NCBI RefSeq assembly: GCF_041261445.1
Contig: NZ_JBGCCU010000031.1
Span: forward strand, 62,001-126,000
Source of the DNA: Catenulispora sp. EB89
Lineage (GTDB): Bacteria > Actinomycetota > Actinomycetes > Streptomycetales > Catenulisporaceae
Reading direction: 5' to 3'
Length of the DNA: 64,000 bases
Shown: piece after piece, positions 48,889 through 64,000 of the stretch
Numbering within the stretch: position 1 is the first letter of the stretch
Layout: each line of letters starts with the position of its first letter
Notes under the pieces: model-generated
The model's database searches: none
What the model saw: only the letters and a program-made list of their open reading frames with translations
Told to the model about the DNA's origin: nothing
Position numbers and translations under genes: made by a program

Positions 48889-50880
48889 CTATCCGGGGCT
48901 GTGAGCCGACTGGTCTCCGCCGGTGTCGGCCGTCGGAGCGAACTCCCCGATCAGCTCCGCGTCCGACGCCTCCGGCCGCGCCGCGAGCCGGCCGGCCAGC
49001 TCCAGCCAGCGCTCGACGTGGCCGTCGAGGCGGCTGCGGACCAGGTTCTCCAGCGGCCGGTTCAGGGGGTGGTCCAGGGCTTCGTCGGTGCGTGGCCATC
49101 GAGTGTCGTCGGGCTCCGGCGCCTCGTCGGGGATCGGGGTGGCGCGCGCCGCCGCGAAGATCGGCTCGGCGTCGCCGGTGGCCATGGACTCGCGGACGTA
49201 CGGCTCCATGTATTCGAGGGTGCCTGAGCGGTGCAGGTCGAGCGCCCACACCGCCTCCACGCCGACGATGTCGGCGAGCAGGGCGTAGGTGGCGGTCTCC
49301 TCCGGTTCGTCGACCTCTTCGATGATGTCGCGCAGCAGGCTGAGCCACCACGCGGGATCGTCCGCCATGCCGCGGAGCGCGGCGAGGATTTCGCGGGTGT
49401 TGTAGCCCGCGTTCTCGACCATCCACTCGCGCAGTTTCTGGCCGCGCGGTGCCGTGGTGAGCGCACGTGACCGGACTTCCGGGCCGACCTCGTCACGATC
49501 CATGATCGCGAACGGGATGTTCGTGAACTGCGCCTTGTCCAGCAGCCGGTGCAGCACCGAGTCGGGCGCCGTCTCGTTGGCGGCCAGCGCCTCGCGCTGC
49601 GGGACCGTGCCGCGGGTGACGATGTGCTCCACCAGCGCGCGGCACAGCGGGACTTGGGCCGCCAGAGCGTTGATGGTGCGTTTCATGTTCTTCGTGACCA
49701 GCGCGCGGGTTGCGATGTCGTGCGGTGCCGACGCGAGCAGCATGTTGCGCGCGTCGAGTTCGGTGATCCGGGAGCCGTGGTCGTCGGCGAATCGGCGGTC
49801 GCGGTCGGCGATCGGGCCGGCCAGCAGTTCCGGCAGCGTGCCGCCGTAGGCGTTCACCCACGTGACCGCGTGCGCCCAGCGCTTCACGTCGTCGCCGAGG
49901 TGTGCGTTGGCGGTCTGTGCTATCAGAGCCCGCATATCGTCCGCGGCACGTCTCTCCCCGGGCCGTACGTCCTCGTCGTCCTCGCAGACGGCCAGCGAGA
50001 CGACGGCGGCGGCCGGGCGGGTGTGCTCCAGCACCTCGGCGGGAGACAGGGTTCCGGCACGCAGCGACGCCCGGGCCATGGCACGCATCTGAGCGTAGGT
50101 CGGGTCGCGCGGGCTCTGGGACTCCTCGACGAGCGCGCGGTACTGGTCCAGGGACAGCGGATTCACCAAATGGGCGTTCGGGGTGCGGCCGAACGCGGTC
50201 TCGCGCGAGTGGTTCGCCGTGACGGACCCGAAACGGCGGTGCCCGAGCACGGTGAAAGCGCGGCCCCGGCCGGCCCACAGCCGGCGATGCCGCTTCGCTT
50301 CGGCCCGCAGGCCGTACGCGTCCAAGGTGATGATGGCGCGCGCGGCTTCCCGCGCGGCGAGTTGGTCGGCGTACGGCAGCACCGCCAGCACCAGATCCGG
50401 ATCGTCGGCCCCGGCCAAGTCGTCCAGCAGAACCCTGTCGGGCGCCGAGGCGGCGACGGAGTCGAGCAGGGACTGCTTCACCGACGGCGGGATGACCGCT
50501 CGACCGTCAGGCCCCTTACGGTCGCGGAGGATTGTCGTGCGAGCCTTACGCACCAGGTATCCGATGGGAGCCGGCTCGAAGAACGCCGCGTCGGCGGCCG
50601 GATCGAACCGCAGCAGAACGCGGTCCGCGACATCGTACGGCTCCTCGACCCGGCCGAGGAGCGCTTGCCGGGACAGCGCGATCAGCGCGGCCGGCGGGCC
50701 CTCGTCGAGGATGTACTCGCGGATCGCCAGGCTGATCCGGCCCTGTGCGGCCTCGACGGCCGCGGCGAGGTCGGCCGCGGGCAGCGCGGACACGACCGCT
50801 CGGGCGTCGGCGGGGCGCGCGGATTCCAGGAGTCTGAGCAGCCGGGCCAAGGCCGCCGCGTGGTCGACCACTCGCGTCAC
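48889..50880 (-). CDS. Unknown 663-residue helical-repeat-like protein
   Basis: A 663-residue protein that I do not recognise. It is almost all helical with frequent Ala/Leu/Arg, and recurring units such as LCRALVEHIVTRGTVPQREA and NETAPDSVLHRLLDKAQ resemble leucine-rich-variant or HEAT-like repeats (about 330-560). No signal, membrane segment or catalytic motif is visible. The last 40 residues are Asp/Glu/Pro-rich. ATG start. It is transcribed away from the next gene, and its 3' end overlaps the truncated ORF. Confidence 0.7.
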   Translation of the reverse strand: MTRVVDHAAALARLLRLLESARPADARAVVSALPAADLAAAVEAAQGRISLAIREYILDEGPPAALIALSRQALLGRVEEPYDVADRVLLRFDPAADAAFFEPAPIGYLVRKARTTILRDRKGPDGRAVIPPSVKQSLLDSVAASAPDRVLLDDLAGADDPDLVLAVLPYADQLAAREAARAIITLDAYGLRAEAKRHRRLWAGRGRAFTVLGHRRFGSVTANHSRETAFGRTPNAHLVNPLSLDQYRALVEESQSPRDPTYAQMRAMARASLRAGTLSPAEVLEHTRPAAAVVSLAVCEDDEDVRPGERRAADDMRALIAQTANAHLGDDVKRWAHAVTWVNAYGGTLPELLAGPIADRDRRFADDHGSRITELDARNMLLASAPHDIATRALVTKNMKRTINALAAQVPLCRALVEHIVTRGTVPQREALAANETAPDSVLHRLLDKAQFTNIPFAIMDRDEVGPEVRSRALTTAPRGQKLREWMVENAGYNTREILAALRGMADDPAWWLSLLRDIIEEVDEPEETATYALLADIVGVEAVWALDLHRSGTLEYMEPYVRESMATGDAEPIFAAARATPIPDEAPEPDDTRWPRTDEALDHPLNRPLENLVRSRLDGHVERWLELAGRLAARPEASDAELIGEFAPTADTGGDQSAHSPG

Positions 50881-50930
50881 CGCCCCTCATCCTGAACCGA
50901 AGCATCCAGGGTAGGCGATGGCGATCACGG

Positions 50931-50964
50931 AAAAGGGCCGGGCCCGGTCTCCCGAGCCCGACCC
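50931..50964 (-). terminator. Rho-independent terminator of the secreted-enzyme operon
   Basis: Read on the minus strand: a 13-bp stem with two G-U pairs and a GAGA loop (stem 50935-50947 and 50952-50964), followed by TTTT (50931-50934). It lies 26 bases past the stop of the GH76 gene. The T-run makes this the clearest terminator in the window. Confidence 0.9.
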
Positions 50965-50990
50965 GATATCTCAGGGCATTGCTTCGACCA

Positions 50991-53051
50991 CTATGACACG
51001 GCTGTCCCCGGCGAAGCCCAGGAACTCCACGCCGACCACTCGCCGCCGGCGGTCTTCTCGAACCGGTTCATGATCGATCCGTCGCTCATCAGCGCGAACA
51101 CCTCCACGCGGCCGTCCTGGTGCCGGGCGACGGTCGAACCCACGACGGTGACCTTTCCGGTCCCGGCCGGCCCGAACCCGCTCCAGGTGGACGTCCAGGG
51201 CCCGCTCGGACTGGTCTCGAAGCGGTTCTGCAGCCCGCCGCCGGACGGCACCGTGAACACCTCCATGCGGCCGTCGAGGTGGACGCCCGCCGAATCAGTG
51301 TCCGGCAACCCGGTGTTGTCGGCGGTGCCCTTCGACGCGTAGTCGTTCCACGGCGACCACTTCCCGCCCGGCGAGCTCTCGTAGATGTTCTTCATTGAGC
51401 CGTCGCTCATCACGGCGAACACTTCCAGCCGGCCGTCCGAGTGCTGTCCGGTGGTGACGGCGTCGACGGTCGGGTTGGTGCCCGACGTGTCCGGCCCGAA
51501 GCTGTTCCAGGTCGACCAGCTCTGGTCCGGGGCGGTCTCGTAGCAGTTCTTGATCCCGCCGCCGGTGACGGCGAACAGCTCCAGCCGGCCGTCCTGGTGC
51601 ACGCCGACGGTCAGCGCCGAAGCCGTGCCGCCGGGCGCGAAGCCGTTCCAGGGGGACCAGGCGCCGTCGGGGCTCTGCTCGTACTTGTTCAGGATCGAGC
51701 CGTCGCTCATCACGGCGAACACTTCCAGCCGTCCGCTCAGATGCCGTCCGGTCGCCACCGCGACCACCTTCGGCTTCGTCCCGGACGTGTCCGGCCCGAA
51801 CTCGCTCCACCCGGACCACCCCTGGTCCGGAGCGGTCTCGTACCGGTTCTCGATCCCGGCGCCGCCGGGCGTGACCGCGAACACCTCGACCCGGTAGTCG
51901 GCGTGCACGCCCGCGGCGATCCGGCCGCCGCTGCCCTGCTGGTACGGCGGCCCGACCGACGGCACGCCGCCGAGCGCGACGACCAGCGCGGCCTCGGCGC
52001 TGGCCTGGGTCCCGGAGGTGGCGTCCTGGAACGGCCCGGCCCAGCTCAGACCGAGCTGCCCGGCGCCGTTCGTGTCGTGCGCGACGATCGAGTTCGCCTG
52101 CGCCTGCAGGAAGCCGTCGTACGCCGTGGTCCCGGCCGCGGTCGCCAGTGTCCGCAGGCCCCTGACGTAGATGCCCTTGAACGACGGGCCGTCCGCCCCG
52201 CAGCTCGGCTCGCAGGGCTCGACGAGGACCCCGTTCGGCGCGAGGTGCGCCGTCGAGGCGTTGGCCAGCGTCTCGCCGGTGGTCAGCAGCCCGCTGTTGT
52301 CGTCGGCGCGGGACAGCTCGGCCAGCCCGGCCAGGATCACGCCCTGGTTGTAGGACCAGACGGTCCCGGCGTTGTTCTGGCAGGAGCCGTTCAGCCCGTC
52401 GTTGATCAGGTGCGAGCTGTTGATCATGCCGCTGCCGTTGAACCAGTTCCACTCGGAGTTCGCCCACCCCAGGTACGTGGTGTCGCCGGGCAGCCGGTTG
52501 TGCAGCGTGGCGGTCAGGTCCAGGAACAGCTCGTTCGGGATGGCGTTCTTGTAGGTCTTCGCGGTGCTCCACCAGATCCCGCCGCCGCAGGTGGAGTCCC
52601 AGTAGTTGTGGATGTACCCGGCGTCGGTCTCGGCCATCTGCAGGTACTGGATGTTGCCGGTGACGTCGTACGCCTGGAGCCACGCCAGGCCCCACCAACC
52701 GGTGTCGTCCAGGTAGGAGTTCTCGAAGTTCGAGCCCTTGTTCGCATTGAAGGCCCCGGAGATGGCGTAGCTGTAGGACGTGTCGTTGGTGGTCTGCTGG
52801 TACGTCAGCACGGTGCTCAGCGCCACGGCCGACGTCCACCAGCCGTCGGTGCCGATCAGGCCGGTGCCGGAGTTGTAGCCCGCCATCAGCACTTTGACAC
52901 CGGAGGCCGCCGCCGGGCTGGAGGCCTGCGGAACGGCGGCGCGCGTGACGCCCGCGGCCTGAGAGGTGCCCGCGCTAAGACCGGCGGCCAGCGCGACGCC
53001 GACGGCGACGGATACCACGGCCGCCGTCAGACTTCTGATTCTGAATCTCAT
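50991..53051 (-). CDS. Secreted GH76 alpha-1,6-mannanase-like enzyme with six-repeat propeller
   Basis: A 686-residue secreted enzyme. The signal peptide is about 1-33. The GH76 domain (about 50-375) has the catalytic pair Asp115-Asp116 in YLDDTGWWGLAWLQAYD, plus NEWNW-like WANSEWNWFNGSG. The rest is six repeats of about 48 residues (from about 383), each with a [19 protein letters not shown] or TPGG-type strand and a SPWNGFAP-like loop; this is a PLL-like (DUF346) beta-propeller. GH76 enzymes cut alpha-1,6-mannan of fungi or of mycobacterial lipomannan. It is the last gene of the operon, with a terminator downstream. Confidence 0.88.
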   Translation of the reverse strand: MRFRIRSLTAAVVSVAVGVALAAGLSAGTSQAAGVTRAAVPQASSPAAASGVKVLMAGYNSGTGLIGTDGWWTSAVALSTVLTYQQTTNDTSYSYAISGAFNANKGSNFENSYLDDTGWWGLAWLQAYDVTGNIQYLQMAETDAGYIHNYWDSTCGGGIWWSTAKTYKNAIPNELFLDLTATLHNRLPGDTTYLGWANSEWNWFNGSGMINSSHLINDGLNGSCQNNAGTVWSYNQGVILAGLAELSRADDNSGLLTTGETLANASTAHLAPNGVLVEPCEPSCGADGPSFKGIYVRGLRTLATAAGTTAYDGFLQAQANSIVAHDTNGAGQLGLSWAGPFQDATSGTQASAEAALVVALGGVPSVGPPYQQGSGGRIAAGVHADYRVEVFAVTPGGAGIENRYETAPDQGWSGWSEFGPDTSGTKPKVVAVATGRHLSGRLEVFAVMSDGSILNKYEQSPDGAWSPWNGFAPGGTASALTVGVHQDGRLELFAVTGGGIKNCYETAPDQSWSTWNSFGPDTSGTNPTVDAVTTGQHSDGRLEVFAVMSDGSMKNIYESSPGGKWSPWNDYASKGTADNTGLPDTDSAGVHLDGRMEVFTVPSGGGLQNRFETSPSGPWTSTWSGFGPAGTGKVTVVGSTVARHQDGRVEVFALMSDGSIMNRFEKTAGGEWSAWSSWASPGTAVS

Positions 53052-53063
53052 AATGGTCGAGTC

Positions 53064-54584
53064 CTACGGCTGGACGGTCTTCGCCGACGCATAGCTGTTC
53101 CAGGGCGACCAGCTGCCGCCCGGGCTGCTCTCGTACTTGTTCTGGATCGAGCCGTCGCTCATCACCGCGAACACCTCCAGCCGGCCGTCCTGGTGCCGGG
53201 TCACCGTCGTGGCCGTGGCCACGCCGCTCGGGCCGAAGTCGTTCCAGCCGGTCCAGGCCTGGTCCGGGGCGGTCTCGTACTTGTTCTGGATCCCACCTCC
53301 GGGGGTCACCGCGAACACCTCCATGCGGCCGTCCAGGTGGACGCCGGCCGAATCAGTGCCCGGAGACCCGGTGCCCTTCGCGGTCTTCGCCGGGGCGTAG
53401 CCGTTCCAGGCCGACCACGAGCCGTCGGGAGCACCCTCGTACTTGTTCTGCATCGAGCCGTCGCTCATCACGGCGAACACTTCCAGCCGTCCGTCGTGGT
53501 GCTGGCCGGTGGTCACCGAGTCCACGGTCGGGCCGGTGCCCGAGATGGTCGGCCCGAAGCCGCTCCAGCCGGCCCAGGCCTTGTCCGGGGCGGTCTCGTA
53601 GTTGTTCTGGATGCCCCCGCTGGGCGTCACCGCGAACACTTCCAGCCGGCCGTCCTGGTGCACGCCGACGGTGATCGACTTGGCCGTCTTGGCGTTGGCG
53701 AAGCTGTTCCAGCCGGACCAGCTGCCGTCGGCGGTCTGCTCGTACTTGTTCAAGATGGAGCCGTCGCTCATCACGGCGAACACCTCCAGCCGGCCGTCCA
53801 GGTGCCGTGCGGTCGCCACCGAGACCACGGACAGGCTGGTCCCCGACGGGCCGAAGCCGCTCCAGTTCGACCAGCTGCCGTCCGCCGTGGTCTCGTACCG
53901 GTTCTCGATCCCGCCGGCGGGCGTCACCGCGAACACCTCGACCCGGCCGTCCTGGTGCACGCCCGAGGCGATCCGGCCGCCGGTGCCCTGCGAATACGGG
54001 GTGAGCCCGGTGTAGTGCTGCGGGTAGTACGTGCCGGAACCGGAGAAGTACGGGTATGGGATCACGTGGTACGACGTGCCGTAGCTGCCGGACGGCCCGT
54101 GCTGCTCGAAGCCCCAGTACGAGGTGTGCGTGCTGTCGGTCCAGTGGTCGAACATCACCACGTGCCCGGCGTCCCCGGCGCTGGGATTGTCCAGGATGTC
54201 GCCCTGCTGCAGGCTGTCCTTCGCGACGTCCTGGAAGCCGTTGGCCTCGTACATGTCGCCGGTGACGAAGGCGCTCAGGCCGGTCGGCGTCAGGTGCAGC
54301 GCCATCGACACGAAGCCGGAGCAGTCGGTGCGGTACGGCACGCCGTCGGGGCTGTTGAAGGTCGCGCCCTGGTCGTAGATGACACCGTTGCCGTTGTTGG
54401 CGTTCACCCATGACATGGCGCGTGTCGCGGCCATGCAGCCGGAGATCTCGCCGTCCGGGGTGGACTGGTCGGCGCAGGTGATCGCGGTGTCGGCGTGCGC
54501 CGGGGCGGCCGCCACGACTCCGCCGGCCAGGGTGGCCAGGACGGCTGCGGCGCTGAGTGCGAAACCGCGTTGGGAAGTGCGCAT
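53064..54584 (-). CDS. Secreted NlpC/P60-like cell-wall hydrolase with six-repeat propeller
   Basis: A 506-residue secreted protein. The signal peptide is about 1-31 (cut near AHA-DT). The catalytic domain (about 45-195) has a Cys88 in [15 protein letters not shown] and His141 in GHVVMFDHW, consistent with an NlpC/P60 or CHAP-like peptidoglycan hydrolase or amidase. Six PLL-like repeats follow from about 205. The third catalytic residue is not certain (His162 in FEQHG is possible). It is 12 bp upstream of the GH76 gene and 45 bp downstream of the SGNH gene. GGAG lies 7 bases before the ATG. Confidence 0.82.
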
Positions 54585-54629
54585 TCTTGTTCTCCTACTG
54601 GAAAAGCTCGTGAATTCAGGGGAGGCGGC

Positions 54630-55874
54630 TCAGAGTTTCCCGACTGGCACCAGGTCGGCCATGACGGCGTTGCCCTGGATGTTCGGGTGGATGTGGTCGC
54701 CGGAGTCGTAGGTGGAGTTGAGGATCCCGACGCCGTTGTTGGAGTAGCCGCCGAGGGCCGCGTCGAAATCGCTGTAGCCGTCGGCGATGCCGCCGGCGCC
54801 GCCGCGGACCCAGGAGTTATAGGCCAGCCGCTGCGTCTCGAACGCACTGTTGCAGGACTCTGTCCCGGTTCCGCCGACGCCGCCGCACGGAGTGAGCGTG
54901 GTCAGCAGGAACTTGAGCCCGGCGTTGTGCGCGGAGGCCGCCAGCTTGATCTGGGCGGCTTCCAGCTGGGCTGCCGTGACCCCGGCTCGCAGATCATTGA
55001 TACCGCCTTCTTCGATGACGGTCCTGGCACCCGGGATGTCCAGCACGTCGCGCGTCCAGCGCGTCGTCACCGACGGGTTGCCCGGCTGGTCGGCGATGAC
55101 CTGGTCCCCGGTCTCGCCGACGTTCACCATGCCGAGCCCGACCTGCCCGGTCCGGGCGGCGAGGTAGTCGGTCCAGGCGGTGTCGCTGTTGCCCGGGGTG
55201 CCCATCGCCGCGGTGATGCTGTCGCCGATCGCCACGACGGTCGACTTCGCGGCGGAGTCCACGTCGACGCCGGCCAGGAACGTCGTGAAGCCGAAGGTGT
55301 TGGTCGTCGGGAAGAACTGGTCGCCGCTGGCGTCGACGCCGTTGGCGTTGTACTCGGTCTGGAGCGCGTAGGTGTTGGACGGTGCCGTGCTGATCGGCGC
55401 GCTGGACGGCACGTAGATCGAGACGAGCAGCCGCGTCCCGGGCGTCACCGGCATCGCGACCGGGTCGGAGGCGACCTTGCCGCCGGCCGGCACGGTCACG
55501 CTGCGCGAGCCGCCGTTGAAGGTGACGGTGACCGGCGTCGCCGTGGTGGTGCCGCCGTTCTGTTGGACGCCGACGGTGACGTGGCCGAACGTCGCGGCGC
55601 CGGCCATTCCGGCGTCCGAGAGGTCCACGCGGATCTGGTCGCCGCCGAGGGAGGTGCGGGCGACCATCCGCAGGGTCTGGTTCTGCCAGGCCGGGTTGTT
55701 GGCCACGGTGCTGGGCTGCGAGGTGGCCCAGGTTCCGGTGAAGGTGGTGGCCGCGGCCGCCGATGCCGTCGGCGAGGTGCTGCTCGCCGCCGACGCGGCG
55801 GGCAGAAAGGACGCGCCGGCCAGGGCGCACACCGCGAGTGCGGTGGCACGGTGGCGTGCGGGGATGGCTTTCAT
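54630..55874 (-). CDS. Secreted SGNH/GDSL hydrolase (esterase) with N-terminal beta-sandwich
   Basis: A 414-residue secreted enzyme. The signal peptide is about 1-29. Residues 45-200 form a beta-rich domain of about 155 residues (TFTGTWATSQPSTVANNPAW). The GDSL domain follows: AIGDSITAAM with nucleophile Ser219, NVGETGDQV (Gly), EGGINDL (Asn) and DSGDHIHPN with the Asp-His pair. This is the only operon member without the propeller. Such enzymes deacylate polysaccharides or lipids; acetyl or succinyl removal is possible here. GGAG lies 6 bases before the ATG. Confidence 0.87.
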   Translation of the reverse strand: MKAIPARHRATALAVCALAGASFLPAASAASSTSPTASAAAATTFTGTWATSQPSTVANNPAWQNQTLRMVARTSLGGDQIRVDLSDAGMAGAATFGHVTVGVQQNGGTTTATPVTVTFNGGSRSVTVPAGGKVASDPVAMPVTPGTRLLVSIYVPSSAPISTAPSNTYALQTEYNANGVDASGDQFFPTTNTFGFTTFLAGVDVDSAAKSTVVAIGDSITAAMGTPGNSDTAWTDYLAARTGQVGLGMVNVGETGDQVIADQPGNPSVTTRWTRDVLDIPGARTVIEEGGINDLRAGVTAAQLEAAQIKLAASAHNAGLKFLLTTLTPCGGVGGTGTESCNSAFETQRLAYNSWVRGGAGGIADGYSDFDAALGGYSNNGVGILNSTYDSGDHIHPNIQGNAVMADLVPVGKL

Positions 55875-55909
55875 GCGGTTCTCCGGGATTCGGGGTGTCA
55901 GGCGGGGTG

Positions 55910-57685
55910 TCAGGCCTTGACGGTTCCGGCGTTCGCGAAGCCGTTCCAGCTGGACCAGCTGCCGTTCGGGCTCTGCTCGTACCTGTTCTTGATGGAGCCG
56001 TCGCTGATCACCGCGAAGACCTCCAGCCGGCCGGACTTGTGCTGGCTGACGGCCGAGGCGACGACGGTCTGGGGCGCGATGTCGGTCGGTCCGAAGCCGT
56101 TCCAACCCGACCACGTACCGTCCGGGGAGCCCTCGAACTTGTTCGCCAGACCGCCGTTCGACGTGACCGCGAAGACTTCCATGCGGCCGTCCAGGTGGAC
56201 GCCGGAGGAGTCAGTACCCGGATATCCGCTGCCGATCACCGACGTGGCCTTGTCGGCGTAGCCGTTCCAGGGCGACCAGGTGCCGTCGGGGCTCTGCTCG
56301 TACTTGTTCTGCATCGAGCCGTCGCTCATCACGACGAAGACCTCCAGCCGGCCGTGGGCGTGGCGCGCGGCGGTCACGGATTCCACTTTCAGGGTGGTGC
56401 CGGTCGGACCGAAGCCGCTCCAGGTGCTGGCCCAGGGGCCGTCGGGAACGGTCTCGTACATGTTCAGCAGGCTGCCGCCCGGCGTGACGGCGAAGATCTC
56501 CAGCCGGCCGTCCTGGTGGGCGCCGACGCTCGCCGAGGCGGCGGTTCCGCCGTTCGCGAAGCCGTTCCAGCCGGACCAGTTGCCGCCGGGGGACTGCTCG
56601 TACTTGTTCAGGATGGAGCCGTCGCTCATCACGGCGAACACCTCGACGCGGCCGCCGAGATGGCGTCCGGCCGCCACCGAGACGACCTTCGGCTTCGTCC
56701 CGGAGGTGTCCGGCCCGAAGGCGTTCCAGCCGGACCACGCCTGATCCGGGGCGGTCTCGTAGCGGTTCTGGATCCCGGCGCCGCCGGGCGTCACCGCGAA
56801 CACCTCGATCCGGCCGTCCTTGTGCACGCCGGTCGCCAGCAGGCCGCCGCTGCCCTGGTCGTAGCGCACGGGCCACTGGCCGAAGTCGGCGGTGAAAGCC
56901 TCGTTCTTGTCGCAGTCCGCGCCGTCGAAGGTGAACTCGCCGGTCTGCCACAGCTGGATGCCGGGGTAGGGGCTGGCGTTGCGGCCGCCGGAGTAGGAGG
57001 TCGACTCCGACTGCCAGGCCCACTGGATCCGGCCGGAGCCCAGCAGCCAGCCCAGGGCGTCGTAGCTGGAGTAGGCGCCGGCGCGGGCGGCGCCGATGAC
57101 CGAGGCGACGCCGTCGAAGTAGGCGTTGACCGCGGTCATGTCGCCGGACTGCACGTCCCAGTCGAGGCTGAAGTAGATCGGCCGGTCCGGCGGCATCCCG
57201 CACGCGGCGGCCTGCTGCTGCGCCGAGGTGGCGTCGGAGACGCCCTGGTTGTAGCCGTTCAGCGCGGCGGTCGTCGCCGCCTCCCAGTTGCAGACCACTG
57301 GGATGCCGGCCGCGTTCAGCGCCTGGGCCTCGGCGAGGGTCAGGTTCTTGGTGGGGTCGTTGCTGAGGTAGCGGATGGCGAAGGTGTAGCCGGCGCTGAG
57401 CATCGCGCTGGTGCTCGGGTGCGGGGCCCAGGCGTAGTCCAGGCCGTAGGCCACGACCGGGGGAACGGCCGCCGCGCTGGCTGTGCCGGCACCGGTGGCC
57501 GCGGTGGTCGTGCCGGCCGTGCCGACCGTGCCGGCCGCGGTCGCTCCAGCGGCTCCGGTGGCCCCGGTCGCCGCCGAGGCGCTGTCGGCCAGGCGGACGC
57601 CGGACACGGCGAGGGTCGCGAGGGTGCCGGTCCTGGCCAGCAGCCTGCGTCGGGTCAGTCCGGTGTGGTCGGGGTTCTGATCCAT
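55910..57685 (-). CDS. Secreted DUF1906 (Rv2525c-like) glycosidase-like protein with six-repeat propeller
   Basis: A 591-residue Tat-type secreted protein (TRRRLLARTG at 11-20). After an Ala/Thr/Gly linker comes a DUF1906 domain (about 85-290): YGLDYAWAPHPSTSAMLSAG, FAIRYLSNDP, PIYFSLDWDVQSG and WAWQSESTSYSG. DUF1906 is a GH25-like TIM-barrel fold found in mycobacterial Rv2525c and lysozyme-like proteins. A six-repeat propeller follows from about 295. Candidate activity is on peptidoglycan or another glycan. AAGGA lies 8 bases before the ATG. Confidence 0.85.
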   Translation of the reverse strand: MDQNPDHTGLTRRRLLARTGTLATLAVSGVRLADSASAATGATGAAGATAAGTVGTAGTTTAATGAGTASAAAVPPVVAYGLDYAWAPHPSTSAMLSAGYTFAIRYLSNDPTKNLTLAEAQALNAAGIPVVCNWEAATTAALNGYNQGVSDATSAQQQAAACGMPPDRPIYFSLDWDVQSGDMTAVNAYFDGVASVIGAARAGAYSSYDALGWLLGSGRIQWAWQSESTSYSGGRNASPYPGIQLWQTGEFTFDGADCDKNEAFTADFGQWPVRYDQGSGGLLATGVHKDGRIEVFAVTPGGAGIQNRYETAPDQAWSGWNAFGPDTSGTKPKVVSVAAGRHLGGRVEVFAVMSDGSILNKYEQSPGGNWSGWNGFANGGTAASASVGAHQDGRLEIFAVTPGGSLLNMYETVPDGPWASTWSGFGPTGTTLKVESVTAARHAHGRLEVFVVMSDGSMQNKYEQSPDGTWSPWNGYADKATSVIGSGYPGTDSSGVHLDGRMEVFAVTSNGGLANKFEGSPDGTWSGWNGFGPTDIAPQTVVASAVSQHKSGRLEVFAVISDGSIKNRYEQSPNGSWSSWNGFANAGTVKA

Positions 57686-57743
57686 GGGGTGGTTCCTTCC
57701 AGCGTCGATTACCAGAGGTCTGTGTTGATCATGGGAGTGCCTC

Positions 57744-60700
57744 TCAGCCGGTGGCCGCGGGCGCGAAGCCGTTCCAGGTCGTGGACCAGGCGCCGTTCGC
57801 GCTTTGTTCGTAGCGGTTCTGGATCGAGCCGTCGGACATGACGGCGAGGACTTCGAGACGTCCGTCGTGGTGGGTCGCGGCGCCGACTTCGGTGACCGTC
57901 CCGCTGCTCGGGCCGAAGGCGGCGAAGCCGTTCCAGGTGCCGTTCGGCCCGCTTTCGGCGTCGTCCTGCAGGGCGCCGGAGGCGTTCACCGCGAGGACGA
58001 CCAGGCTGCCGTCGGCGTTCTGCGCGACAGTGAGGGCCGTGCCGGCCGTCCCGGCGGACGCGTAGTCGTTCCAGTCCGACCAGGTGCCGTTCGTGACCTT
58101 CTCGAAGATGTTCTTGATCGAGCCGTCGGACATGACCGCGAACACCTCCAGCCGGCCGTCGGCGTGGTTGCCGGCGCGGACTTCGGCGACCGTCCCGGCC
58201 GGTCCGAAGCCGTTCCAGCCGGACCAGGCCTGGTCCGCCGCGGTCTCGTACTTGTTCTGTACGCCGCCGGTGCTGCTGACCGCGAACACTTCGAGGCGGC
58301 CGTTCTGGTGCATGGCGACCGTCGCGTTCACCGCGGTCTTGGGCGGAGCGAAGCTGCTCCAGGCGGACCAGGTGCTGTCCGGGGAGGTCTCGAACTTGTT
58401 CATGATGGAGCCGTCCGACATGACCGCGAAGACTTCGAGCCGGCCGTCGTCGTGCCGGGCCACCTGGATCGACGTCACGGTGATCGGATCGGTGGCGCTG
58501 ACCGGTGGCCCGAAGCCGTTCCAGCCGCTCCACAGGCCGTTCGGAGTGGCCTCGAAGTTGTTCAGGATGCCGCCGGAGGTGGTGACGGCGAAGTCCTCCA
58601 TCCGGCCGGACAGGTGCGTCGCCGACACGACCTGGGTCGTGGTCTTGGGCAGCGCGTAGCCGCACCAGGGGCTCCACGGCGCTTCGGGCTTCGTCTCGAC
58701 GGTGCTGTTCACCGCGCCAGCGGCGTTGACCGCGAAGACCTCGACGCGGCCGTCCTGGTGCTTGGCGATCGCCGGGGATCCGTTGCCGCCGGGGAAAACG
58801 GCGATCTGGCCGGTTACGGTGGTCGCGGTTGCGGCCGAGGACGCGGCGGTCTTGGCCGGAGGTTTCGCAGGAGCCTGTGTCGGTGTCAGGGGCCTGGCGG
58901 GTCTGGCACCTGCTGGTTTCGCGGACGTCGTGCCGGATGCCCCGTCGGGAAGGATCGATACGGCCCGGTATCCGGCGGCCGACCACGGCGATCCGGCGTG
59001 CGGCGTGATCGAGACCGTGATGGCGGTCTTGCCCGCGGTCGCCGAGGCCGGGAGCGTGAATCCGTCGTCGAGCCACTGGTGGTACTGGTTGCCCAGCGGT
59101 TCGAGCCAGGTGCCCACGGCCGTGCCGTCGACGCTGACGTCCGCGGTCTGCCCGGAGGCGTCCTGGTCGCTGGTCCGCTGCAGGACGACGCCCTGGTTGG
59201 CGCCGTTCACCGCGAGGGTGAAGGCCGTCGCCGCGGCGCTGTTGTCAACACACTGCGAGACCGGGGCCGGTGTGCCGTCGTTGCCTTCGTAGTCGGAGGT
59301 GACGGCGTCGGCCGAGGCGCCGGTGCTGCCGCCGGTGACGTAGCCGTGCGCGCTCTCGCTGGCGGCGTTGCCCAGCGCGATGCTGTCGGTCTGCGCCTCG
59401 GCGGCCGTCGTGGTGCCGTACCACAGGGCCGTGGTCGTGTAGTCGGACTGGACGTCGTCGTGGCCGCCGTGCTCGATGCCGTAGTCGATCTTCGAACCGA
59501 ACGGGATGGCCTCGTTGAGCAGCAGCCGGTAGGCGGCGGTGCAGTCCACCCCGCTCGGGCAGTCGCCGGCGCCGTTGGCCTCGTCGCCGCTCTCGCCGGT
59601 GACGGGGTCGGTGAAGGGGCCGTACTTGAAGTACCAGCCGCCCTGGAAGTAGTCCTCGGTGCCGGTGCCGTTGATCTCAGGGGACTGTGACCCGTCGGTG
59701 TAGGCGCGCTCGTTGCCCTCCAGCGTCACGCGGCTGGTCGGGCCGTTCATGGCCGCGACGACGCCGACGACCTTGCCGTGGCCGGTGGTGTTCAGGAACG
59801 TCCAGTCCCGGCCCGGCGTGGTCGCGCCGCTGTTCGCGGTGGCGTGGAAGTACCCTACGGTGCCGTCGGCCAGGTCGGTGGCCCAGTGCGGGTCGGCCGC
59901 GGTCGTCAGCGAGTAGTCGCCGTACGTCAGCGGCTGCGACGAGGCGTTGTCGATGCTGATCGAGTAGCTGCTGCCGTAGGGCATCGGCCACCACGAGGTC
60001 AGCGCGCCGCCGGGGCGCGGGTCGATCGCGCTCATCAGGGTCCTGGTCGCGGTGTCCGTGTTCGAGCCGAAGAACTCGCCGAGCGGGGCGTCGACGGTCT
60101 GGACGCCGTCGAAGCTGATCCGGATGCGGGCCGAGGCGAGCGCCTGGTCCTGGTTCGGGTAGCTGTTCGTCCGGCTGCCGCTGAAGGTGGGGGTGCCGCT
60201 GACGCTGTAGGCGTGGGCCTTCGCCGCGGCGGTGTTCCCGACGCTGAACTCGTCGGTGCGCTCCATGCCGGTGGGCATGTGGCTGTCGACCCAGTAGGAG
60301 AACTCGTTGAAGTCCTTGGCGGAGGACACGAAGGTGTTGGTCACGGTGATGCTGCTCTTGCCGGCCGTCACCGAGGCCGGGATCTCCAGGGACTCGTCGA
60401 GCCAGGAGCCGTTCGGCTCCTGCGGGTTGGCGGTCCAGTCGCCGACCGGGGTCTTGTCCACGGTCACCGCCGCGACCTGGGAGGCGATGTTCGGGTCGAG
60501 CCGGCGGGTGAGCCGGACGCCGTTGTTGGCCGGGTCGATCGCCACGGTGAACGTCGAGGACTGGCCGGTGCCGAAGGCGTCGCCGGTGTCCGTGACCGAG
60601 CCCGGGAGCGGATAGCTGTACATCTGCGTGCCGGACCAGGTCTGGTTCGTGATCTGGTACGCGTGCGCCGCCTCGGTGGCCTGGTGCTCGGGGCCGACGT

Positions 60701-61901
60701 CGACGGTGTCAGCGCTCTGCCACACGCCGCCGACCTGCTGCTGGACCGAGTATTCGAACTCGTTGAAGTCCTGGTCGGAGCTGACGAAGGTGTTCTGGAC
60801 CGTCGCGCTGGACTTGCCGGCGGTCGCGGCGGCCGGGACGCCCAGGGTCTGGTCGGCCCACTGGCCGGGGCTCGCGGTGGCGGCGCCGTTGGACCACTGG
60901 CCGGCGGCGGTGCCGTTCACCGTCAGGTTCGCCTTCTGATTCCCCACGTGCGGGTCGAAGCGGCGAGTGATGCGGATGCCGGTGTTCGCAGGGTTCAGCG
61001 ACACCGTGAACTTGCTGGAGCCGCCGGAGCCGAAGGCCCGTCCGTCGTCGGTGATCGGGGTGGTGGTGGGGTGCGAGAGGTGCGGGATCTGCAGGCTCAG
61101 GGCCGTGATCTGGCCGCTGCCGGTTCCGCTGGCGATGGTTGTGGACTGGCTCGGCATCACCTGGAAGGAGCCGCCGGTCGTGGTCGCGCCGGTGATCGGG
61201 GCTTTCGGGTCGGAGGCGCCGGCCTGCTGCAAGGTGGTGATCACGTCCGAGGCCGACGCGTTCGGGTTGAACGTGCTGACGCCGGACGCGTCGGGGAAGG
61301 TGCGGTAGCCGACGTGGTAGAAACCGGGGTCGCCGTCGGTGCTGATCTGCATCGACGTCGTGAACGGCATGGGTACTTCGATAGAGAAGCCGCCGGAGCT
61401 CTGGGTGTCGTTGCTGACGAGCGGGAAGGTGAAGGCGGCGGGCACGTTGGTGCCGTTGAAGATGTCCGCGGCCGACTGGTCCAGCACGGTCTGGCCGTCC
61501 AGCACGATGCGGAGCTTGCCGGCCGCCGCGACGCCGCCGGTCATCCAGATCGCGTCGACCTCGCCGGGGCCGTCGTGCGCGGCGAGGAGTTTGCTGCCGT
61601 CGGGGAGCGTGCCGAGGACGTTGTTGTGGTCGTTGTTGCCCTGCTGGCGGTCGAAGCTGGAGAACTGGCGGGTGCTGACGGCGTCGGTCAGGTCAGGGAG
61701 CTGATCCAGTTGGCGGTAGGTGTTCCAGCCGACTGTGCCTTTGGTGGCGGTGGCGGTGGCGGTGCTCGACGCTGCGGACGCGGTTTTGGCCGTGGCCGTG
61801 GCCGAGGCCGCGCGCTGGGGTGCGAGGGCGGTGGTCGTCATCAACACGGCCGCCACCAGCGCGGAAGCGCTCATGGCGCGAGTCAGAAGTCTGGGCTGCA
61901 T
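57744..61901 (-). CDS. Secreted GH172-type (DUF2961) enzyme with three beta modules and seven-repeat propeller
   Basis: A 1385-residue secreted protein. The signal peptide is about 1-33. The DUF2961/GH172 core is split: [15 protein letters not shown] (about 80) and, after an insertion, [10 protein letters not shown] followed by [20 protein letters not shown] (about 749). The insertion carries two related beta modules (about 290-385 and 445-545, both with NTFVSS-KDFNEF-like sequence), and a third copy follows the core (about 885-985). A Pro/Ala linker leads to a seven-repeat propeller (about 1034-1385). GH172 members include exo-alpha-D-arabinofuranosidases and difructose-anhydride enzymes. 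It is the first gene of the operon. Confidence 0.87.
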
Positions 61902-61978
61902 GGTCGATCGCTCTCTGGGCCTTGATCGGGTTCGACTTCGTTGCCAGGGTGCGCTCGGCGTTGCGGTGATCGGCAGAG

Positions 61979-61993
61979 GCTGAATGGTTCAGC
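61979..61993. promoter_or_regulatory. Dyad GCTGAA-3-TTCAGC upstream of the secreted-enzyme operon
   Basis: A perfect 6-3-6 inverted repeat, 78 bases before the GH172 start. Its CTGAA/TTCAG arms match those of the LacI-type palindrome at 36633, but the spacer is one base shorter. A promoter or operator role is inferred; the rest of the 235-bp gap shows only the terminator below. Confidence 0.4.
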
Positions 61994-62076
61994 AAGTGAC
62001 ACGGGGAGAACTGGAAGCCAGGCATCGGCTGCCGAACTGGTCCAAGTCGGGCGGGGCGAGGCAGCTGCGCACACGC

Positions 62077-62112
62077 AGCAGGGCCCCGCGACGTGGGTCG
62101 CGGGGCCCTGCT
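62077..62112 (-). terminator. Hairpin terminator of the ricin-type lectin gene
   Basis: A perfect 16-bp stem (AGCAGGGCCCCGCGAC and its complement) with a GTGG loop, 24 bases past the stop of the lectin gene on the minus strand. No T-run, as usual in this genome type. It separates the lectin gene from the downstream operon. Confidence 0.85.
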
Positions 62113-62136
62113 CCGGACTCGGCCGAAGGTGCCTGG

Positions 62137-62721
62137 TTAAACCGGCTTCTGGATCGGCATCCAGCTGTCGTTGTCACCGCCGGCACCGGCCGTGAACAGG
62201 CTCCCGTCCGTGTCGACGTAGAGCAGGCGGCCGGTCGCCACGTCGTCGAACGTCGTCCAGCCGCTGGTGAATCCGGGCGACGACCAGTCCTGGTAGGCGT
62301 TGCCCGGGGCCTGGCACGGGTTGGTGGTGTAGACCTGGCCGGCGGCGTTGCTGTCGAGGCAGCGGCCGGTCGCCTGGTTCTGGAGCGAGTAGAAGTAGTA
62401 GTAGCCGGAGTAGGGCGAGTAGGCCTGCCACTCGGTCCAGTTCCAGTCCTGGTACTTGTTGCCCGGGACCTGGCACGGAAGCGTGTAGGCGCCGCCCGAG
62501 GCGTTGCTGTCGAGGCAGTGGTTCGGCCCGGCGTAGCCGCCGGCCCACAGCCCGAACCACCCGGAGTGGATGGCGACGGGCGCGGACGCGGGCGTCGCCG
62601 CCGGCCGGGCCACGGCGGCGGCGCTACCGGGCGCCACGACGCCGAACCCGACGGCGGCCACGGCCGCGACGAGGGTCAACAGCCGGGCGCGCAGCCCAGG
62701 ACTTTGATTTGGTGTGATCAT
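62137..62721 (-). CDS. Secreted ricin-type (beta-trefoil) lectin-like protein
   Basis: A 194-residue secreted protein. The signal region is about 1-35. The mature part has recurring QxW-like units: NHCLDSNASGGAYTLPCQ, GNKYQDWNW, GRCLDSNAAGQVYTTNPCQ and GNAYQDWSS, the ricin-B repeats with Cys pairs. Two full repeats and a degenerate third (TGRLLYVDTDGSLFTAGAGG) are seen, so one trefoil. It likely binds galactose- or xylose-type sugars. AAGGGG lies 7 bases before the ATG. It is upstream of the secreted-enzyme operon in the same direction but ended by a strong hairpin. Confidence 0.85.
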   Translation of the reverse strand: MITPNQSPGLRARLLTLVAAVAAVGFGVVAPGSAAAVARPAATPASAPVAIHSGWFGLWAGGYAGPNHCLDSNASGGAYTLPCQVPGNKYQDWNWTEWQAYSPYSGYYYFYSLQNQATGRCLDSNAAGQVYTTNPCQAPGNAYQDWSSPGFTSGWTTFDDVATGRLLYVDTDGSLFTAGAGGDNDSWMPIQKPV

Positions 62722-63234
62722 GCAGATACCCCTTGCGTAGGAGGCTGAAATCCGCGAAGGTCTGTCCCGCCGCTGCGGGCGGCACCGCGGGTGCCGCGGT
62801 TTCCACCGCAGCGGACCAACAGTGTGGGCGAGTCGCAGAGTTCTGGCAATAGCCGGGGTATAGTCCGGACATTCTTGACTCGGTGGGGAAGTTCGGGCGG
62901 CTGGGGCACGCGACGCGGCTGCGGGGGCGGTGCTCGCGCGGTGGTGCGGGCAGAGCGTCCGGCCTGCGGGAAAACCGCGCGGCGAGGCTGGTCGGGGCCT
63001 GGTCGGGGCCTGGTGGCGCGGCGCGGCGATGAGTGCTGCCCGCAAATCGCCGACTGCCAGGTGCCGGCTGAGGCCCAGGCGAATCCGCTAAATCCGCGCG
63101 CCCGCAAGCGTGATCAAAGTGTGTGACTAGTCTGAAGTGCCGCCCCGCCGGTAGTGACCCGGTCGCGCCGTGCTCGTTCTCCACGTCGGAACAATCCTCC
63201 TTTGTCGTGGTGAACCGAGTAGAAAGCCGTCCAT
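62722..63234. other. 513-bp intergenic region between divergent lectin and membrane-protein genes
   Basis: No coding sequence with convincing start and codon pattern is seen. The minus-strand side has TATACC near 62859 and the palindrome GTCCGGAC beside it, which might belong to the lectin promoter. The plus side has TAGAAA near 63220 before the next gene. Nothing stronger was found. Confidence 0.5.
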
Positions 63235-64000
63235 ATGCGGACCGATGTCATCTCCGGCCACGTGGACCCCTCCGGGGCGCGGGGTGGGCCCGAATCGGAC
63301 GCTGCGTTGGAGTCGGCGATGGTGTTGCACTATCCGCGGCTCGTGCGGATGGCGTACCTGGCGTTGCCGGGGGATGGGGAGCGGCATCATCGGGCGCTGA
63401 CCGCGCATGGCATTGTGCAGAACACGCTTCCGCGCGCCGGGATGGTGCCCGGGCTGCGGGCCTTCGGTGCCGCGCGGCTGTCGATCCCGTATCCGCGCAG
63501 GCGCGCGCCACGCATCGACGGGACCGCGGTCGGGGCGAGTGATGCTGCGTACTCGGCGCTGCGGCTGGCCGTCCTGCGCGAAGTGTTGTGGGCGCCGCGA
63601 CGCCGTTGGCCCGGGTTCCTCGCGCTGGTGCTGCGGCCGCGGGTCTGGGGGTTGCGGCTGTTCCCGGTCGGCGGCGGGGCCGAGGAGTTGCGGTTGGCGT
63701 CGGCGCTGCGTGACGCCGACCCCGTCGCCCGTGCCGCCTACGTCCTCATCACGCTCGAAGGGCTCGACTCACGGCAGGCCGAGGCGGTGCTGAACGCGGC
63801 CGGCGCCGACAACTGCCGGGTCGGTGTCGCGGCCGGGCAGCGCATGGCCCTGATCTACCCGGCCGAGGTGGCGCTCTCCGGGGAGTTCGATCCCTGCACG
63901 CTGCGTACCGGACCGGTCGATCTGCCGCAGCGTCGGCGCCGGATCCGGCTGGCGGCACTGCTGACCTGCGGCGTCGTGGTGGTCGGGGTCGGGCTGGCGG
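63235..64000 (+). CDS. Protein with sigma-like segments and a membrane helix, 5' part (runs off the window)
   Basis: An open frame from ATG 63235 to the window end with no stop (255 codons). It begins MRTDVISGHVDPSGARGGPE. VLHYPRLVRMAYLALPG and the later DADPVARAAYVLITLEGLDS then RQAEAVLNAAG resemble weak sigma-70 regions 2 and 4. A run of Arg (LPQRRRRIRLAA) leads into a hydrophobic stretch (LLTCGVVVVGVGLA), the start of a membrane segment. No strong ribosome binding site was seen; GAAAGCC lies just upstream. It may be a membrane-bound regulator. The rest lies outside the window. Confidence 0.6.
   Translation, partial: MRTDVISGHVDPSGARGGPESDAALESAMVLHYPRLVRMAYLALPGDGERHHRALTAHGIVQNTLPRAGMVPGLRAFGAARLSIPYPRRRAPRIDGTAVGASDAAYSALRLAVLREVLWAPRRRWPGFLALVLRPRVWGLRLFPVGGGAEELRLASALRDADPVARAAYVLITLEGLDSRQAEAVLNAAGADNCRVGVAAGQRMALIYPAEVALSGEFDPCTLRTGPVDLPQRRRRIRLAALLTCGVVVVGVGLA

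Follow-up and report, generated by a model that had tools for sequence, protein, structure and literature searches.

In a soil actinomycete, five neighbouring genes code for enzymes that look secreted, and four of these enzymes carry the same lectin-like propeller, raising the question of whose cell wall they act on. The genes lie in a stretch of 64,000 nucleotides (the window) of the 11.9-Mb genome of Catenulispora sp. EB89 (contig NZ_JBGCCU010000031.1, positions 62,001 to 126,000), side by side on the minus strand, and each of the five open reading frames (ORFs) is free of internal stops. An initial annotation of the window regarded them as an operon that may dismantle a mycobacterial-type envelope. 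We propose a broader reading, which appears to us evenly poised between right and wrong: the operon would be one secreted, envelope-bound lytic cassette against the walls of other actinomycetes, be they live competitors, prey, or dead mycelium. Mycobacteria are one possibility among the arabinan-bearing actinomycetes, and none of the evidence singles them out.

In such a cassette, a propeller of the PLL type would hold four enzymes on one wall glycan. The NlpC/P60-like protein would cut the peptides of peptidoglycan and the DUF1906 protein its glycan strand, the GH172 protein would trim alpha-D-arabinofuranose off arabinogalactan or lipoarabinomannan, and the GH76 protein would cut alpha-1,6-mannan in lipomannan-type lipoglycans. 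The SGNH esterase, which is untagged, would take off acyl groups blocking the other enzymes. The gene order, the domains, the kinship of the propellers, the conservation, and those catalytic residues that were checked are read from the sequences; the organism under attack, the substrate of each enzyme, the binding, and the secretion are what we infer for this cassette.

Operon layout, conservation, and the producer's own wall

The features of the operon are as follows (window coordinates; aa, amino acids).

57744-61901, minus strand: GH172 protein, 1385 aa
55910-57685, minus strand: DUF1906 protein, 591 aa
54630-55874, minus strand: SGNH esterase, 414 aa counted from the ATG at 55874
53064-54584, minus strand: NlpC/P60-like protein, 506 aa
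50991-53051, minus strand: GH76 protein, 686 aa
50964-50935, minus strand: terminator-like hairpin with TTTT, 3' of the GH76 gene; 13-pair G+C-rich stem with 11 G-C pairs

The five ORFs were found where the initial annotation had placed them, and the gaps of 12-58 base pairs (bp) claimed for them are 58, 35, 45, and 12 bp in the order from GH172 to GH76. The terminator proposed after the last gene corresponds to the hairpin listed above, which has the longest stem among the seven terminator-like sites in 50700-63300 (5.4 are expected by chance). For the SGNH gene, an alternative, longer ORF starts from a GTG within the DUF1906 gene. As read by eye, all five proteins begin with signal-like N-termini, four of them Sec-like and that of the DUF1906 protein of the twin-arginine (Tat) type.

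The C-terminal propeller of the GH172, DUF1906, NlpC/P60-like, and GH76 proteins, which is missing from the SGNH esterase, turned out to be homologous to the seven-bladed PLL lectins of Photorhabdus. The best PLL match per protein ranged from E 4e-31 to 3e-47, the latter being that of the NlpC/P60-like protein to PLL2 (6rfz). Judged from the sequence, there are seven PLL-type repeat motifs in the GH172 protein and six in each of the other three. Across the genome of EB89, the propeller was detected in five genes, namely the four of the operon and a DUF1906 paralogue at G000:C24, and this near-confinement to the operon is what a common targeting-type module, as envisaged in the initial annotation, would show. 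The grouping of the genes exceeds chance because four of the five propeller genes of the 11.9-Mb genome are clustered within 11 kb and because a second species shares the gene order (see below). In a tree of the propellers, examined for homogenisation within the operon, the sequences grouped mostly by gene, with the window rows weakly supported; the presence of the propeller in four operon genes reflects duplication in part. The paralogue (locus L014, 9495-11222, minus strand) is 71% identical to the operon DUF1906 protein in the catalytic part, and relatives of the L014 type also occur in the genome taken as Catenulispora acidiphila and in other members of the genus.

We compared the operon across a set of 10 genomes of the genus, which includes the one taken as C. 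acidiphila (10,467,782 bases, single contig). All five genes were found in identical order in C. pinistramenti (L037/L044), with 83-93% identity over the aligned catalytic stretches and 77-93% over longer N-terminal parts. Four of the genes were found in C. pinisilvae, in which one contig end (L142) bears the NlpC, SGNH, and DUF1906 genes together with the GH172 propeller, and another contig end (L038) bears the catalytic part of GH172; no GH76 gene lies beside the NlpC gene there. The GH172 relatives are 84% identical in both species. Altogether, the operon, whole or partial, is present in three of the 10 genomes, the genome taken as C. acidiphila not being among them, and a close GH172 was absent from the remaining seven (34% matches in two and no match in five).

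Three proteins flanking the operon in the window (a 663-aa protein downstream, a ricin-type lectin, and a 255-aa upstream frame) had no match near the operon in the other two species, where the readable flanks extend about 2 kb upstream in C. pinistramenti, 10-16 kb upstream in C. pinisilvae, and about 7-8 kb downstream. As the gene set is conserved and the tested neighbours differ, the operon appears to have been kept as a unit, and the changing of the tested flanks is as expected for an accessory unit. The ricin-type lectin is a small, secreted-looking protein (62137-62718, minus strand; PF14200, 27.0 bits with a cut-off of 25.6) encoded on the upstream side of the GH172 gene, at a distance of about 235 bp.

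This distribution bears on an alternative already offered by the initial annotation, in which the enzymes act on the peptidoglycan and the arabinose-containing polymers of Catenulispora itself, in development or recycling. The whole-cell sugars of C. acidiphila are described as rich in arabinose, a point that speaks for self-remodelling and also against our proposal, and its lipids as including phosphatidylinositol mannosides (PMC3035231); AftA-like proteins were found in two of the 10 genomes (G009 and G010). On the other hand, only three of the 10 genomes hold the operon, and its tested flanks are accessory-like. EmbABC was found in none of the 10 genomes (two are under 85% complete), the Corynebacterium glutamicum control being positive, and AftA was not found in the three genomes that hold the operon. 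Because the operon holders thus appear to lack both EmbABC and AftA, remodelling of an own arabinan of the mycobacterial type is unlikely, although own arabinose of another kind is possible; taken as a whole, we consider the own-wall explanation improbable. As a separate observation, G009 and G010 possess an AftA-type arabinosyltransferase domain in genomes with no EmbABC match.

The propeller in other genomes of the order

Elsewhere in the order, the propeller offers a clue to the target polymer. It was detected in 62 of 391 genomes of the order (query, the GH76 propeller; E up to 1e-10) and in 10 of 394 genomes drawn from the class (query, the NlpC propeller; E up to 1e-12), the latter draw including the genome of EB89 and some of the same relatives as the order search. 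We classified 44 distinct ORFs with a PLL-type propeller, which remained of 55 entries after 9 under 100 bits and 2 truncated duplicates were set aside; the NlpC-PLL gene of locus L150 fell out with the duplicates as well. These ORFs are a non-random sample comprising the best-scoring genomes of the order search and chosen clusters, and three of them (GH76, NlpC, and DUF1906) are the operon copies in the sister species.

The domains fused to the propeller were M23 in 10 ORFs, GH43-like in seven, NlpC-like in six, SLT_3 in five, lysozyme-like (assigned by eye) in five, DUF1906 in four, and M15-like (by eye) in three; GH25, GH76, M10, and a second SLT-like type (by eye) were each seen once. Thus, 16 of the 44 are M23, SLT_3, or GH25 proteins and nine more are lysozyme-, SLT-, or M15-like by eye; the labels given by eye (M15-like, SRYF lysozyme-like, and second SLT-like) go with proteins lacking a Pfam match to a peptidoglycan hydrolase above the cut-off. 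In a Pfam search with 10 representatives, GH43, SLT_3, M23, GH25, and M10 scored above the cut-off and the NlpC-like, M15-like, and lysozyme-like domains below it; two NlpC-like representatives had no NlpC/P60 match in Pfam and were recognised through their alignment to the operon NlpC protein. No GH172 was present among the 44. The peptidoglycan target named in the initial annotation is in line with this survey, in which the propeller is fused mostly to domains of the peptidoglycan-hydrolase type. By title and abstract, we found no report of such fusions in the open-access literature, among the matches listed.

Six cluster loci were retrieved from one large genus of the order, which we take to be Streptomyces. 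In three of them (L143, L144, and L147), M23, SLT_3, and GH43-like PLL genes lie side by side; in L146 and L154, the M23 gene adjoins the GH43-like gene and a lysozyme-like PLL gene is located upstream, some kilobases away; the PLL genes of L145 are of the M23 and lysozyme-like types. The GH43-like part was closest to arabinanases, including endo-alpha-1,5-L-arabinanases (1wl7, E 9e-7). With other enzyme families, the pattern of a predicted peptidoglycan-peptide cutter, a predicted peptidoglycan-glycan cutter, and an enzyme of the furanosidase type under a common propeller recurs in these clusters.

We entertain, tentatively and with more doubt than confidence, a wider view in which, throughout the order, PLL-type propellers address secreted sets of muralytic enzymes to their target and so serve in lysing other actinomycetes. 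Wall-cutting enzymes that are unrelated to one another (M23, SLT_3, NlpC/P60, GH25, DUF1906, and GH43 and GH172 of the furanoside type) would have acquired the lectin repeatedly and been gathered into operons, the Catenulispora version being specialised for arabinogalactan and lipomannan. At G000:C26 of EB89, the GH76 protein has a twin (L016, 8220-10232, minus strand) with a catalytic domain 81% identical, which ends in a different, regular C-terminal repeat domain with no Pfam match, implying that one copy either gained the PLL propeller or had its C-terminal module swapped.

Further PLL loci are recorded here. In another genome of the genus Catenulispora, the gene after an NlpC-like PLL gene encodes a GH25-PLL protein (L150, 5735-10272). 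A PLL protein with no Pfam family above the cut-off (L161, 4897-6972) has a counterpart at L160 (120-2102), so that this type occurs in both C. pinistramenti and C. pinisilvae.

The five enzymes and the choice of target

Pfam agreed with four of the five domain assignments of the initial annotation, and the fifth, NlpC/P60, fell just under the cut-off (PF00877, E 2e-4, 21.8 bits with a cut-off of 23). In that protein, the Cys of a DCSG motif and one His are invariant among nine aligned sequences, itself and two orthologues nearly identical to it included, and it is a predicted cysteine peptidase or amidase. The DUF1906 domain, which we take to have a GH25-like fold, matched PF08924 (E 5e-24, 86 bits with a cut-off of 27.2) and aligned over nearly its entire length with Rv2525c (PDB 4pmq; E 1e-11), a protein for which we know of no proven catalytic function. 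Regarding the enzymology of DUF1906, the accessible passages of the literature offered mentions of the domain only. The SGNH/GDSL esterase matched PF13472 with E about 2e-14 to 3e-14. The GH76 protein matched PF03663 (E 7e-46) and retains the DD motif of the family, its LDDTGWW being aligned to the DD of CtGH76.

The GH172 protein is the most elaborate of the five. An N-terminal part, inferred to be jelly-roll-like, is followed by two inserted repeat domains, the DUF2961 core (residues 590-828; PF11175, E 4e-55), a third such repeat domain, and the seven-motif propeller at the C-terminus; the repeat-domain copies were identified by self-match. The extra N-terminal part perhaps resembles that of DgGH172b, a 1.5-domain enzyme reported to have weak activity (PMC10115798). 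The solved chains 4kq7, 8ah3, 7v1v, and 8ic8 were matched at E 2e-17 to 6e-9, and in the alignment to them the catalytic Glu pair (E270 and E291 of alphaFFase1, the acid/base and nucleophile in the numbering of PMC8605356), D292, and W298 are identical in the operon protein.

The genes surrounding GH172 members of the same clade were scanned at 69 loci, some of which end near the gene. A FucI-like isomerase lies beside the GH172 gene at 18 loci according to a blastp cluster (60 gene-called loci) and at eight of the 69 by a stricter tblastn search. An FGGY kinase was found at 20 of the 69, of which 17 are actinobacterial, and an RbsC-type permease and a sugar-binding protein nearby at 24 each. 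In Actinoallomurus iriomotensis, genes for LacI, the isomerase, GH172, the transporter, and the kinase are consecutive. L-fucose and D-arabinose are both substrates of FucI-type isomerases. Published D-arabinan loci are described as using an isomerase, in one case named together with a kinase (PMC10115798, PMC10509167). Since the FucI-like isomerase and the kinase neighbours match the steps of those loci, D-arabinose seems the likelier product of the GH172 enzyme, L-fucose or another sugar being possible. Furthermore, GH183 was found in 15 of 17 genomes holding the GH172 clade (18 loci from the 69-locus scan lie in these 17), 14 of them above the cut-off, a figure to be read knowing that the background rate of GH183 in actinomycetes was not measured; EB89 itself has a single GH183 copy, outside the operon.

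We rejected the idea that GH172 genes of the clade generally come with the same five genes, as among the 69 loci Nakamurella aerolata is the only species other than C. pinistramenti in which a GH76 gene adjoins GH172. In that species (L102, 8999-11926), the GH76 match stops just ahead of the same-clade GH172.

A number of observations weigh against our proposal, and they concern GH172, GH76, and the propeller. The residue equivalent to Trp267 of alphaFFase1, which contributes to subsites -1 and +1, is Trp in the four solved chains and Val in the operon GH172. Where close relatives show the exact motif, 46 of 46 have no Trp at this position, nor have 14 of 14 with a relaxed motif, and all four distant homologues do have it; this survey covered 68 rows (50 with the exact motif, 14 with the relaxed motif, three, L047, L104, and L110, with a match in a doubtful position, and the unmatched L108), with L111 standing outside it. 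We found no characterised member in the clade. As for its neighbours, the FucI-like isomerase scores below the Pfam and NCBIfam cut-offs, and the FGGY kinase is closest to xylulokinase and under the NCBIfam cut-off. The genome of EB89 gave no match to a single FucI-like query, other isomerase types not having been searched, and the same query gave distant 26% matches in C. pinisilvae and C. pinistramenti. According to Pfam, none of the five operon genes encodes a GH183, GH116, importer, isomerase, or kinase. With neither GH183 nor a GH116-like gene among its members, and with no FucI-like match in the genome of EB89, the operon does not resemble a locus for feeding on D-arabinose. The arabinan-acting GH172 foreseen in the initial annotation hence agrees with the clade neighbours, which fit D-arabinose, and sits less easily with the absent Trp267 equivalent and the want of a characterised relative.

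In a further explanation, the cassette lyses or scavenges Gram-positive walls in general and is not specialised for arabinan, GH172 acting on another furanoside of wall polymers. The loss of the Trp267 equivalent throughout the close relatives, the lack of a characterised clade member, and the count of zero GH172 among the 44 PLL ORFs would all fit such a role; the clade neighbours, which suit the breakdown of D-arabinose (or L-fucose), and the GH183 genes in 15 of 17 genomes do not. We judge it quite unlikely.

The second set of objections comes from GH76. Its closest solved relative is CtGH76 (9r4k, E 1e-50), and the remaining solved GH76 chains matched at E 4e-18 or weaker; the kinship was judged on solved chains, among which there was no LamH chain, so that LamH is set apart by its published placement. 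CtGH76 belongs to a subfamily of fungi and bacteria mixed and LamH to a separate one of Actinomycetes only, and the authors could not show alpha-1,6-mannosidase activity of CtGH76 (PMC12295086). Being nearest to the mixed subfamily, the operon GH76 may act on fungal mannan or on glycosylphosphatidylinositol (GPI) glycans. Because of this enzyme, we kept an explanation in which the cassette attacks the walls of forest-soil fungi: GH76 would cut their alpha-1,6-mannan or glycans linked to GPI, the propeller would bind fungal glycans, and side chains or fungus-associated bacteria would be targets of the remaining enzymes. The preference of PLL lectins for fucosylated and O-methylated sugars (PMC12203525) would suit it as well. 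Nevertheless, the peptidoglycan-hydrolase type accounts for two of the five enzymes and for most of the domains that bear the propeller elsewhere, Pfam detected neither a chitinase nor a glucanase domain in the five genes, and the fucose/O-methyl pocket of the propeller is altered, making the attack on fungi a decidedly improbable explanation.

The alteration of the pocket is the third objection. In known PLLs, a hydrophobic site with two Trp residues binds fucose and O-methylated sugars (PMC5584973, PMC12203525). With blade positions assigned by spacing from the PHL residue numbers in PMC5584973, the first Trp of this pocket is missing in 25 of 25 operon blades and present in six of seven PLL blades. 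The polar second site retains Arg and Glu in 24 of the 25 operon blades, and its Trp position is aromatic in 23 (a shift of one residue being allowed). Because the pocket residues are altered, the sugar specificity of PLLs cannot be carried over to the operon propellers. PHL and the P. laumondii PLLs are reported to bind the O-methylated disaccharide of PGL-1 of Mycobacterium leprae (PMC5584973, PMC12203525); with one of the two pocket Trp residues gone in every operon blade, we did not use this link to a mycobacterial glycolipid as support.

Altogether, the mycobacterial-envelope interpretation survives in its general part, that is, a conserved operon of the lytic type with the expected domains and a common module. 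Three points speak against its specifically mycobacterial target, namely a GH76 whose closest solved relative is CtGH76 and not one of the LamH type, an operon with no GH183, and a pocket Trp lost in all 25 blades.

Significance and comparison with known systems

If our proposal of a cassette against other actinomycetes is correct, EB89 would possess a ready-made set of secreted enzymes for opening arabinan-bearing walls, with a lectin indicating the place of binding, and the set would represent an actinomycete-versus-actinomycete lysis system built on one common tag. It would also show a use of PLL-family lectins, whose described members in the sources consulted come from Photorhabdus, point to candidate substrates of DUF1906 and of this clade of GH172, and possibly yield tools for wall analysis.

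The operon shares with the PLL-tagged M23, SLT_3, and GH43 clusters the arrangement of adjacent wall-hydrolase genes with one common propeller. The enzyme families differ, and in the rows listed the identity between propellers from that genus and the one of GH76 is 33-47%. With the PLL lectins of Photorhabdus (PMC12203525, PMC5584973), the operon proteins have in common homologous propeller repeats and the Arg and Glu of the polar site; in contrast to those lectins, they are fused to enzymes, have six motifs in three of the four proteins, and have lost the first pocket Trp. Rv2525c of M. tuberculosis has the DUF1906 domain as well, although its aligned chain (4pmq) bears no propeller. LamH (Rv0365c), the mycobacterial GH76 enzyme acting on lipomannan and lipoarabinomannan (PMC11233589), shares the family and the DD catalytic motif with the operon GH76, yet it belongs to the Actinomycetes-only subfamily (PMC12295086) and has no detectable signal sequence, whereas the operon protein is, among solved chains, closest to CtGH76 and is secreted-looking.

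The D-arabinan utilisation loci of Microbacterium arabinogalactanolyticum (PMC10509167) and Dysgonomonas gadei (PMC10115798) resemble the operon in possessing a clustered GH172. Like these loci, the wider GH172 clade is often accompanied by isomerase, kinase, and sugar importer genes. The operon, in contrast, is devoid of GH183, GH116, importer, isomerase, and kinase genes; it comprises genes of the peptidoglycan-hydrolase type instead, and its GH172 is secreted-looking and tagged with a lectin.

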